Below are positions 15,862 to 31,891 of a stretch of 32,629 bases of DNA, one piece after another. A program made the translations under genes and the position numbers. The notes under the pieces were generated by a model. That model was not told the origin of the DNA. It did not search any database and saw only the letters and a list, made by a program, of their open reading frames with translations. Each line of letters begins with the position of its first letter. Positions within the stretch are counted from its first letter, which is position 1. Origin of the DNA: SAR324 cluster bacterium (GTDB lineage: Bacteria > SAR324 > NAC60-12); contig JADFZZ010000047.1 in assembly GCA_015232315.1 (NCBI GenBank), positions 1 to 32,629 of the forward strand. The letters run 5' to 3'.

Positions 15862-15999
15862 GTAAGTGTTCAGCTTTCAGTATTCAGCTTTCAGTGTTTA
15901 TGCGCCTCAAAAGCATTATGACTCAATAGCAGAAAATATCGTTAGGCTTCCAGACTTTGAGAATTTCTGAAAACTGATAGCTGACGGCTGAACACTTAC
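15862..15999. mobile_element. 138-bp MITE-like element with 13-bp perfect TIRs and 8-bp target duplication
   Basis: The ends are GTAAGTGTTCAGC (15862-15874) and its exact reverse complement (15987-15999); similarity continues inward with mismatches for about 33 bp (repeated TCAG units). The element is bracketed by ACGAATTG on both sides (15854-15861 and 16000-16007), as expected for an 8-bp target-site duplication. It contains no open frame of note. It lies in the 221-bp gap between the hybrid kinase and the REC-PP2C gene, so it may affect their cotranscription. Confidence 0.8.
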
Positions 16000-29452: not shown

Positions 29453-31069
29453 ATGGATATGGTATTACTGAAACAGCCTGTGTTTGTGTTGCTGATTGTC
29501 GTGATTTTAGGGCTGGCGATTGGAAAGCTGAAATATAAAAGTTTTGAACTGGGTTCGTCGGCAGTGATCTTTGTGGCATTGTTGTCAGGTTATTTAGGCT
29601 ACACAATTCCATCGGTATTCCAGACACTTGGTCTAGTTTTTTTCATATACTCTATCGGACTTCAGGCAGGGCCGGGTTTTATCAGCTCATTTCGCAGTGA
29701 AGGGCTGACGCTCACACTGGGCGCACTTTTTCTTGTCGTAGCGGGAATGCTCACCACCATTGGCGTCTGTCTATTTTTTGGCTATGGCAGTGGGGTCGGC
29801 GCTGGTTTGTTTGCCGGAGCCATGACCAGTACTCCGGGCCTGGCGGTTGCGGTGGATCTGACGACTGGCAAAAATGCCGCCGCGGCCTATGGCGTGACTT
29901 ACAGTTTTGGTGTTATTGGTGTGATCCTGTTTGTCAAGTTGCTGCCACAAATTCTCAAAATTGATATTCCCCATGAAGAACAGCAGATTCAGGAAGAAAT
30001 TTCCGCTCAGCATCCACCTGTCACGTATCATCATATCGTGGTGAACAATCCTAACATTTTCAATAAAATGGTGATGGAAATCAAACTGGACCATATCGCG
30101 CCGGTTTCCATCACGCGTTTGCAGCGGTCCGGAGAAAATATTGCGCACCTTGTTTCTGGAAACACCGTATTGCAGGAAGGCGACCGATTGAGAATTGTCG
30201 GGACCGAAGAGGATCTCCAGAAAGTGGAAATGATGGTTGGCCGTAGAACCGATGAGGATATCCATTTTGACGGGGATATGGTGGTTCGGCAGATTCTTGT
30301 TTCCAAACGAAGGGTGATTGGCAACACGATCAGTTCATTGAATTTCGGCAGTACTTTCAACGTGAGGGTTTCCCGATTGACACGGAGTGGGTTTGATCTT
30401 CCTGCCAGTGCCAGCATCCGTTTAAGAATGGGAGATGTGTTGCATCTGGTGGGGAATTCCCAATCCATCGATAATATTGCCCGACTGCTGGGGAATGATG
30501 TCAAATCCGTTTATGGTACGGATGTGTTCACCGTTCTGCTTGGAATGATGATTGGTTTTGTCGTGAGTATTGTGCCTGTTTATTTACCCGGTGTGGGAGA
30601 ACTGACCCTGGGCATTACGGGTGGAGTTCTGTTTGCGGGACTGATTCTGGGATACCTTTACAGCACAGGTCCATTGGTTTGGGATATTCCGGTGACAGGC
30701 AATAATTTTATTCGGGAACTGGGCCTGGTGCTGTTCCTTGCGTCCGTTGGGACCAATGCTGGGTCGTCGATTGTTCAAACCATTCAGGAGCAGGGCATGG
30801 GATTGTTCGTATCGGGCATTGCTGTGACTTTGATTCCCATGATATTGGGATTCCCCTTTTGTTATTATTTCCTGAAAATCAGATTTTTGAGAACCTTGGG
30901 GGTGTTGACGGGCGGGATGACCAGTACTCCCGGATTGGCCTCAACCACATCATTGTCTGACACTCCACATGCGGCATCCGCTTACGCTACGGTTTATCCT
31001 GTGGCACTGATCGGCATGATTGTCTGCACCCGATTTCTGGTCTGGTTGCTCAACATAATTAATCCCTGA
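29453..31069 (+). CDS. AspT/YidE/YbjL-type membrane transporter with two TrkA-C domains
   Basis: A 538-aa membrane protein with the internal duplication of the aspartate:alanine exchanger (AAE) superfamily. N-terminal block of about five helices ends with GAMTSTPGLAVA (near 121-132); the C-terminal block repeats it as GGMTSTPGLAST (near 486-497). Between them (about residues 190-350) lie two TrkA-C (RCK_C) domains, each with G-D-x-L/RI motifs (EGDRLRIVG, MGDVLHLVG). Substrate is unknown; many relatives carry dicarboxylates or amino acids. GGTGATGG precedes the ATG at 29453, and ATG 29459 is an alternative. It is divergent from rpsA. Confidence 0.92.
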   Translation: MDMVLLKQPVFVLLIVVILGLAIGKLKYKSFELGSSAVIFVALLSGYLGYTIPSVFQTLGLVFFIYSIGLQAGPGFISSFRSEGLTLTLGALFLVVAGMLTTIGVCLFFGYGSGVGAGLFAGAMTSTPGLAVAVDLTTGKNAAAAYGVTYSFGVIGVILFVKLLPQILKIDIPHEEQQIQEEISAQHPPVTYHHIVVNNPNIFNKMVMEIKLDHIAPVSITRLQRSGENIAHLVSGNTVLQEGDRLRIVGTEEDLQKVEMMVGRRTDEDIHFDGDMVVRQILVSKRRVIGNTISSLNFGSTFNVRVSRLTRSGFDLPASASIRLRMGDVLHLVGNSQSIDNIARLLGNDVKSVYGTDVFTVLLGMMIGFVVSIVPVYLPGVGELTLGITGGVLFAGLILGYLYSTGPLVWDIPVTGNNFIRELGLVLFLASVGTNAGSSIVQTIQEQGMGLFVSGIAVTLIPMILGFPFCYYFLKIRFLRTLGVLTGGMTSTPGLASTTSLSDTPHAASAYATVYPVALIGMIVCTRFLVWLLNIINP

Positions 31070-31083
31070 TGTGAGTTACTGCT

Positions 31084-31210
31084 ATAGTCATCGTTTCGCT
31101 AGTCATCGGGACGGCGATACCTGGGCTACTGTCTTCAATAGGTATGTTTCCGTAAAGATTCCGGTAGTTGCTTTAGACTATCGCCTGAAAATCGGTGAAA
31201 CGATGACTAT
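31084..31210. repeat. Inverted repeat downstream of the transporter
   Basis: ATAGTCATCGTTTC (31084-31097) is repeated exactly in reverse complement at 31197-31210, with weaker pairing inward. TAGTCATCG occurs twice in the left arm (31085-31093, 31100-31108). A T-run follows at 31223-31228. It might be a degenerate short element or a transcript-end structure. No target-site duplication was found. Confidence 0.55.
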
Positions 31211-31263
31211 GGTCTCCTATGACATTTTTTCAAACCCAACCATTGTGCTACGCCAACAAGCCT

Positions 31264-31396
31264 CAGGGCTGTTCATTTCTCCTTATTTTGAACGTCAACC
31301 GGATGGTAGGCGGGGATTACATGCCCCGCAAACGCCAAAAATCGTATTTTTGACGGGCACGTAGTCCCGTCCTACCAGAGAAGTGAACAGCCCTGT
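31264..31396. mobile_element. 133-bp MITE-like element with TIRs, nested palindrome and 9-bp duplication
   Basis: CAGGGCTGTTCA-TTTCTC (31264-31281) matches the reverse complement of 31378-31395 at 17 of 18 positions. The element is flanked by AACAAGCCT at 31255-31263 and 31397-31405, a 9-bp direct repeat consistent with a target-site duplication. Inside, GGTAGG (31305-31310) to CCTACC (31371-31376) bracket a second long imperfect palindrome centred near 31341. CAGGG ends and 8-10 bp duplications recall the ISAs1 family, so it may be a non-autonomous derivative; that link is from memory and unverified. It encodes no protein. Confidence 0.75.
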
Positions 31397-31420
31397 AACA
31401 AGCCTGAACAAAAAAACTGA

Positions 31421-31891
31421 TCAATTCATCGGAATCTCTCTGGCCAGATAGGCATCAAAATCGGGCACCTGACGTTCATAAGAGTCATTCATGAACGGAG
31501 ATGAGGTCAGAAAATCCAGGGATGCCAGATTACAGGCAATGGGAATGTTCCATACCGACGCGATTCTCAGGAGTGCCTTGACATCAGGGTCATGCGGTTG
31601 TGGCGACAAGGGATCCCAGAAAAAAATCAGGAAATCAATGTGGCCTTCGACAATCTGGGCACCAATCTGCTGATCACCACCCAAGGGACCACTGTGATAC
31701 CCTGTGATGGGCAGATTCAAGTGCTGTGACAATAGTTTGCCGGTGGTGCCTGTGGAAAACAATTCGTGTTTTTCCAGCATTGTTTTGTGTTGAAGGGCCC
31801 ATGACAGCAATTCCTGTTTTTTATGATCATGGGCCACCATGGCGATTCGTTTTCGGGCATGCATTGTTTTATTTTTTATTGGTATGGACAT
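31421..31891 (-). CDS. mgsA: Methylglyoxal synthase
   Basis: Converts dihydroxyacetone phosphate to methylglyoxal and phosphate, a bypass of lower glycolysis used when phosphate is limiting. The 156-aa protein lines up along its length with E. coli MgsA: ARKRIAMVAHDHKKQELLSW, ELFSTGTTG, SGPLGGDQQIG with catalytic Asp73, IFFWDPLSPQPHDPDVKALL with His100, and VWNIPIACNLA. Start ATG 31891 has AGGA seven bases upstream and gives a normal length. The MITE-like element lies just past its stop. Confidence 0.97.
   Translation of the reverse strand: MSIPIKNKTMHARKRIAMVAHDHKKQELLSWALQHKTMLEKHELFSTGTTGKLLSQHLNLPITGYHSGPLGGDQQIGAQIVEGHIDFLIFFWDPLSPQPHDPDVKALLRIASVWNIPIACNLASLDFLTSSPFMNDSYERQVPDFDAYLAREIPMN

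Follow-up and report, generated by a model that had tools for sequence, protein, structure and literature searches.

What moves a short repeat whose transposon-like ends enclose a strong hairpin? This question is raised by a 132-bp element at positions 31264-31395 of contig JADFZZ010000047.1 from a SAR324 cluster bacterium, of which a stretch of 32,629 nucleotides was analyzed (referred to as the window). An interpretation made from the letters of the window alone (the sequence-only reading) had described a compact non-autonomous element of ISAs1 type with terminal inverted repeats (TIRs), a 9-bp duplication and an inner imperfect palindrome, possibly a hitchhiking hairpin of the repetitive extragenic palindrome (REP) type. 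Judged from the sequence of its ends, its target duplications and its relatives in other genomes, we conclude that the element is very probably a non-autonomous miniature inverted-repeat transposable element (MITE) of the ISAs1 type, and its cargo is a pair of GTAG-tagged REP units.

The two TIRs were found as claimed, at 31264-31281 and 31378-31395, and are complementary at 17 of 18 positions. A pair of ends of this quality (18-bp arms, at most one mismatch, 90-200 bp) occurs once in the real window, where it is this element, and not at all in 20 first-order Markov windows of equal size. In the accessible part of PMC11946415, the ISAs1 family is described by inverted repeats of 14-22 bp that start with CAGGG and by direct repeats of 10 bp; the TIR CAGGGCTGTTCATTTCTC, with its 18 bp and its CAGGG start, falls within this range.

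The element is also not a single copy. A blast search of its own genome with a 151-base query (40 of 58 candidates scored) returned at least 36 matches at E < 1e-8. Insertions have broken four copies into two matches each (C3:194988/195224, C18:7240/7434, C21:79590/79782 and C33:16850/17070), which leaves at least 32 loci of the element family, many of them partial. The 15 uninterrupted copies that were compared, including the one in the window, measure 123 to 134 bp, and the other 14 are 86-99% identical to the window copy. The TIR pattern with up to two mismatches occurs 46 times, compared with 0 occurrences of a reversed control. No match at E ≤ 0.001 was obtained in 97 other genomes, 51 of them from the same family, order or class, where up to eight candidates were scored in each; as far as the genomes compared reveal, the family thus does not extend beyond its source lineage.

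The flanks of the window copy carry the predicted 9-bp repeat AACAAGCCT on both sides, with the right copy starting one base past the element. Its presence was thus confirmed, whereas its length has to be corrected: read as 10 bp, the flanks are CAACAAGCCT and TAACAAGCCT, identical at 9 of 10 positions in register, and accepting this one mismatch removes the offset of one base on the right side. We scanned for duplications in the 16 copies, among 30 loci, in which both ends were located by script. Identity between left and right flank peaks at 10 bp (mean 0.57, compared with 0.17-0.38 at 5-9 and 11-14 bp), and flanks of this length match at 7/10 or better in nine of the 16 copies. The agreement at 10 bp amounts to 5.75/10, against a mean of 2.43 and a maximum of 3.67 in 2000 trials of random re-pairing. 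Outside this set, the insertion-split copy L016 shows, by eye, GATAACAACC on both sides (10/10).

The resulting layout is listed here; "guest" denotes a second MITE family, described below, that is inserted in some copies.
31254..31263, no strand: left copy of the target duplication, CAACAAGCCT, 9/10 identical to the right copy; family length 10 bp
31264..31281, plus strand: left TIR, CAGGGCTGTTCATTTCTC, 17/18 against the right TIR, identical to an alphaproteobacterial MITE end
31305..31329, plus strand: left REP unit, GGTAG tag and 20-nt palindrome, 25 nt, 6/6 stem pairs, family covariation
31315..31324, no strand: 10 bp at the dyad centre of the left unit, unoccupied in the window copy; register matches the guest insertions in L021 and L026
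31330..31351, no strand: spacer between the REP units with an AAAAAT..ATTTTT inverted repeat, read from the sequence and paired in the DNA fold
31352..31376, minus strand: right REP unit, inverted, GGTAG tag and 20-nt palindrome, 25 nt, 6/6 stem pairs
31357..31366, no strand: 10 bp at the dyad centre of the right unit, unoccupied in the window copy; register matches the guest insertions in L011 and L016
31378..31395, minus strand: right TIR, CAGGGCTGTTCACTTCTC when read inward; the L145 ISAs1 of Azohydromonas caseinilytica has the same right end (18/18)
31396..31405, no strand: right copy of the target duplication, TAACAAGCCT, from the 10-bp flank comparison
31421..31891, minus strand: neighbouring open reading frame (ORF), 156 aa, given as context

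The inner palindrome, also borne out, folds far better than expected by chance (z = –8.6 for DNA, –9.3 for RNA), none of 200 shuffles being as good in either case. Such a strong RNA fold, the compensatory changes between REP units and the position of the window copy between the convergent 3′ ends of two ORFs (31421-31891 on the minus and 29453-31069 on the plus strand) would suit an element that is kept by selection on its hairpins, as a transcription terminator or mRNA-stabilizing structure at gene ends. However, in the 27 of 32 loci whose gene context was assigned with a rough ORF caller, seven copies lie between convergent, 11 between tandem and six between divergent genes, two overlap ORFs of 103-104 aa and one was unclassed, so that the copies show no strong preference for any one context. 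Moreover, neither hairpin of the window copy is followed by a T-run, and an Rfam search gave no match. We therefore consider selection for the hairpins an unlikely explanation of the family.

The assignment to ISAs1 was pursued by scanning the genome_contigs collection with the 18-bp end, which returned 19 stretches: seven from one alphaproteobacterial metagenome-assembled genome (MAG), one from a second MAG of the same sampling series, and one ISAs1 element of Azohydromonas. The other ten were discarded, as they contain no partner end within four mismatches in the stretch. The Azohydromonas caseinilytica element (L145) ends on the right in the same 18 bp (18/18) as the window element. Its transposase matches the ISAs1 transposase of the first MAG (G098; 1.5e-19) as well as annotated plasmid ISAs1 genes, and its reading frame enters the end, with the stop codon inside the 18 bp. 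A genome of the same taxonomic family as the window genome (G005) carries the end CAGGGCTGTTTCATTCTC, a 15/18 match, with an ISAs1 gene on two contigs. Both contigs start inside the transposase gene (PF13808, 5.7e-19) and diverge just beyond this end, the one end visible in them, and the N-terminal domain begins 134 bp inside it. The same genome also harbors a 127-bp MITE with ends of the CAGGGCTGTTTCATTCTC type, flanked on both sides by ATCATAAAGG, a 10/10 duplication. Seven plasmid ISAs1 regions were fetched; five contain a clear pair of CAGGG ends (L244-L248), and L249 and L250 do not. The Mesorhizobium element, with ends CAGGGCTGTTCAACGCTA/G, agrees with the window TIR at 14/18 positions at both ends, including the first 12 of 12, while ISAzs11 and the Azospirillum thermophilum ISAs1 are flanked by exact 10-bp duplications. 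A trace is also found in the own genome: at C18:41738-41854 lies a C-terminal remnant of an ISAs1 transposase, 39 residues with 64% identity to the G098 transposase, about 270 bp before the degenerate end CATGGCTGTTCAATTCTC. Taken together, the CAGGG ends, the duplication peak at 10 bp and the ends common to ISAs1 transposase genes agree with the proposed ISAs1-type non-autonomous element, whose TIRs are indeed shared with transposase-bearing relatives, at one end each in Azohydromonas and G005 and at both ends in Mesorhizobium.

Two observations were made alongside these elements. The Azohydromonas L145 gene is distributed over two frames, and the Mesorhizobium and Leptolyngbya genes (L244, L247) are annotated as two overlapping ORFs; this ISAs1 subgroup possibly uses a programmed frameshift. 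In G005, the ISAs1 end on contig C70 adjoins an array at L186 491-674 that resembles clustered regularly interspaced short palindromic repeats (61-bp period), and within the repeat of this array lies CAGGGCTGTT, which equals bases 1-10 of the insertion sequence (IS) end.

Several other candidates were rejected. In the own genome, five solitary exact copies of the TIR 12-mer (C1:315178, C8:148184, C10:77004, C31:5367 and C68:5682) were considered as hidden ends of a full-length IS, and their stretches contain neither a second end within one mismatch of the 12-mer nor an ISAs1 match at E ≤ 0.01. TIR matches in G013, G015, G026 and G046 have no end pair within 450 bp, and two matches in viral contigs lie inside long open frames. 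Probing the plasmid collection with nothing but the end produced weak matches only.

A number of results weigh against an ISAs1 origin. Seven of the 16 end-paired copies stay below 7/10 at 10 bp, L006 and L015 are better fitted by 8 and 9 bp, and a 10-bp duplication is absent in L002, L005 and L008 and in the split copies L021 and L030. Nor do all ISAs1 elements have one: it is lacking in three of the five end-paired plasmid elements (Mesorhizobium, Methylobacter and Leptolyngbya), the flanks of the latter two matching at 4/10. For the Azohydromonas element, the fetched stretch does not reach the left end, and the gene occupies two frames. A full-length ISAs1 with the same ends, for which the sequence-only reading had suggested a search, was not found in the own assembly, which holds no intact ISAs1 gene (best E for PF13808 = 0.3) and only the 39-residue remnant; the claim that the family is active was accordingly not confirmed. 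With 88 contigs and 95% completeness, an intact ISAs1 could be missing from the assembly. The four own-genome PF01609 matches have no such end within five mismatches in the stretches examined. The ISAs1 genes of G098 (L179, L187, L191 and L194) lack the MITE end in the stretches examined, and the second MAG (G099) gave no PF13808 match, so that in no examined genome were the MITE and a matching intact parent seen together. Finally, ends of the IS4Sa type (CA......T, with 8-10 bp duplications; PMC2266710 Table 1) also fit loosely.

The TIRs could thus derive from an IS4-family element of the IS4Sa subgroup instead of ISAs1. The published CA------T ends and duplication lengths (PMC2266710 Table 1) are compatible with CAGGGCTGT and 10 bp, and a broken transposase fragment at C22 (L073; PF01609, 2.9e-7) is IS4-like by our reading. 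However, L073 has no such end within five mismatches in the stretch examined, and the transposase genes found joined to similar ends are ISAs1 genes, IS4Sa elements with such ends not having been searched for. An IS4Sa origin therefore appears improbable, and ISAs1 remains our preferred source of the ends.

Between these ends, the interior consists of two 25-nt units, each a GGTAG tag followed by a 20-nt palindrome; the units face opposite ways, and their tags lie on the outer sides. With the tag outside the palindromic stem and two inverted units, the inner palindrome is what the accessible part of PMC3733652 describes as a head-to-head dimer of GTAG REPs; the supposed REP-like hitchhiker is therefore a GTAG-tagged REP pair. 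Similar pairs occur in two other repeat families of the own genome, MITE_C (TIR CTATAGTCATCGTTTC, e.g. L123 and L126) and MITE_D (e.g. L119), and two loci (L112/L113) have similar pairs without these ends. Eight distinct units, picked by eye for tag and stem, align without gaps and have 48/48 stem cells paired, a figure partly due to this selection; one of them has the letters of L012/L123, and its tag reads GGGAG in L126. Five of the six stem pairs change on both sides within this set (19 of 500 shuffles reach five), and covariation amounts to 0.893, compared with 0.220 for shuffled alignments (0/500 reach 0.893) and at most 0.214 for slid controls. As a check on selection, 49 distinct 25-mers were chosen by the loop alone from 45 own-genome loci. 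Six stem pairs are present in 15 and five in 13 of these (28/49), and GGTAG in 21; the remaining 21 have at most four stem pairs and, by eye, several are cut by, or lie inside, the guest MITE. The same loop occurs 81 times in a 400-kb sample, never with six pairs and twice with five.

Free REP units of this kind look rare. In the 400-kb sample, four full-stem GGTAG units were found, none with the family loop (backwards 0; five permuted tags 0 or 1 each), and of the 57 places in the whole genome within three mismatches of the element's unit, seven lie, by our reading, outside the element and MITE_D-type loci. Mobilization of REP pairs is not expected to leave 10-bp duplications. It is accordingly very doubtful that the family is a REP doublet forming a hairpin (REPIN) or bacterial interspersed mosaic element (BIME) that a REP-associated tyrosine transposase (RAYT) spreads and whose outer repeats are incidental: a head-to-head GTAG REP pair does form the core and one Y1_Tnp gene lies 277 bp from the start of contig C2, but the copies end at the TIRs, many with 10-bp duplications, free units look rare, and the sole inverted repeat detected near that gene within 1 kb of the start of C2 (L118:1-1000, where the sequence ends at the contig end) is not a GGTAG unit.

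Other repeats were noted near or alongside the family. In MITE_D (L119, L120; C1:148240, C48:31326), the REP pair is enclosed by another long inverted repeat, which by eye reads AGGGA...AAATA. Another inverted-repeat element, with the TIR ATAGTCATCGTTTC (14/14), occupies 31084-31210 of the window, 53 bp from the 132-bp element; its ends recur at C9:116203-116417 and C54:4237-4585, in longer copies with REP-like units (L126, L125). The repeat at 15862-15999, to which the sequence-only reading had compared the element, has 33-nt arms at 82% according to a repeat finder.

The REP hairpins are themselves sites of insertion. The guest MITE is mostly 155-156 bp long and has the end CAATGTCRTCAACTTAAG, for which the genome contains 109 matches within two mismatches and the reversed control none. 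Only guests whose two ends and 25-base flanks lay within the stretches examined were counted, so that the count does not cover every copy behind the 109 ends. Duplications of 10 bp at 8/10 or better accompany 22 of the 33 two-ended elements examined; since two guests at L228 share their left flank and were counted as one event, 32 independent insertions remain. Seven of these 32 lie inside a GGTAG unit, four in the 132-bp element (L011, L016, L021 and L026) and three in MITE_C-type units (L228, L231 and L234). All seven occupy bases 11-20 of the 25-nt unit, i.e. its dyad centre, although for L234 the register is visible on the left side only, the right flank being mismatched. Two half-seen guests have the same register (C32:36868-36904 and C3:255573-255609). 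The opposite orientations of the guests in L011 and L016 indicate separate events. The other 25 guests are located elsewhere, and the overall target is weakly G/C-symmetric, with a mean of 3.5 of 12 symmetric pairs against about three expected. By eye, the guest ends fit seven of the eight conserved positions of the published IS231-type consensus, CAT-------AA--TAA, whose elements have 10-12 bp duplications. No transposase with guest-MITE ends was found in five stretches, the only ones searched. Further guest sequences were seen between the hairpins of the C20 copy of MITE_D (L226; 11/11 duplication), as three left ends and one right end in a 49-bp tandem array at G000:C38:21660-21903, and as a minimal element of two ends one base apart at C11:75723-75759.

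The 18-bp end is not restricted to the GTAG pair. The alphaproteobacterial MAG RE-18aug17-8 (G098) harbors 164-bp MITEs with an identical 18-bp end; in L130, L131, L136 and L143, the left end is identical over 22/22 bases. Their core, CGTCATTGCGAG...AATCCAG with its inverted counterpart on the other side, was read as a CGTC-tagged REP pair, following the description in section 6 of PMC3733652 in its accessible part. Six distinct elements have both ends; four show a 10-bp duplication of at least 8/10 (10, 10, 9 and 8) and two show none (1 and 1). The second MAG, G099, contains a 235-bp element with near-identical ends, yet another core and a 7/10 duplication. One set of ends thus encloses REP-like cargoes that differ between lineages. 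Also in G099, the CGTC REP of ISAs1-type MITEs is broken at two places (L197 and L204) directly after CGTCAT by the same foreign DNA, as if the REP were an insertion target for it. This DNA may be of IS110 type; Pfam gave no match for its 40 residues, and the assignment is a lead only. IS982-like and group-II-intron-like readings of other stretches were left out of the argument.

Known relatives share parts of this arrangement. QMITE2 of Coxiella burnetii, a MITE of 150-190 bp with 7-11 nt duplications and a GTAG REP targeted by IS1111, is described in the accessible part of PMC5896051, so that the overall plan, in which an IS is drawn to a GTAG REP inside a MITE, is already known. Its guest is IS1111, whereas the guest of the window family is a MITE with IS231-like ends, and the accessible text names no parent IS and contains no word starting with CAGGG, whereas we assign the ends of the window element to ISAs1. 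With ISAs1 insertion sequences and derived MITEs, the element shares the CAGGG ends, the 18-bp TIR, the 10-bp duplication and ends common to ISAs1 transposase genes; in contrast to ISAs1 elements, it has no transposase, carries a REP pair, and no interior similarity was seen. The GTAG head-to-head dimers in the accessible part of PMC3733652 have the same tag and palindrome with the tags outside, and the CGTC REPs described there correspond to the alphaproteobacterial MITEs with a CGTC tag followed by a palindrome; unlike those dimers as described there, the pairs found here lie within TIRs of DDE transposons. Among the matches listed, no open-licence PMC paper reported in its title or the start of its abstract an assignment to ISAs1, GTAG and CGTC pairs enclosed by the same ends, or a dyad-centred guest MITE.

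Based on these observations, we propose that an ISAs1 transposase would act in trans, recognizing the 18-bp CAGGGCTG... ends, moving the 132-bp unit and leaving a 10-bp duplication. Its source would have been lost or be missing from the assembly. Between the ends, where we see no gene, the head-to-head GTAG REP pair would travel as cargo and probably contribute nothing to transposition; its hairpins would in turn serve as dyad-symmetric landing sites for the second MITE family with IS231-like ends.

The dyad-centred nested insertions may be regarded as a natural record of one transposase reading hairpin symmetry. How CGTC-tagged REPs move is posed as an open question in the accessible part of PMC3733652, which also describes palindromes that surround REP dimers of Anabaena variabilis and H. 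neapolitanus. With one ISAs1 end set that encloses either GTAG or CGTC pairs, depending on the lineage, we tentatively suggest, as a possibility still rather doubtful, that REP pairs in general spread as MITE cargo of DDE transposons, that REP families without a transposase of their own, CGTC above all, move on borrowed ends, and that the palindromes in Anabaena variabilis and H. neapolitanus are such ends. MITEs with ISAs1-type ends around a CGTC pair would provide a concrete, testable carrier for CGTC REPs.
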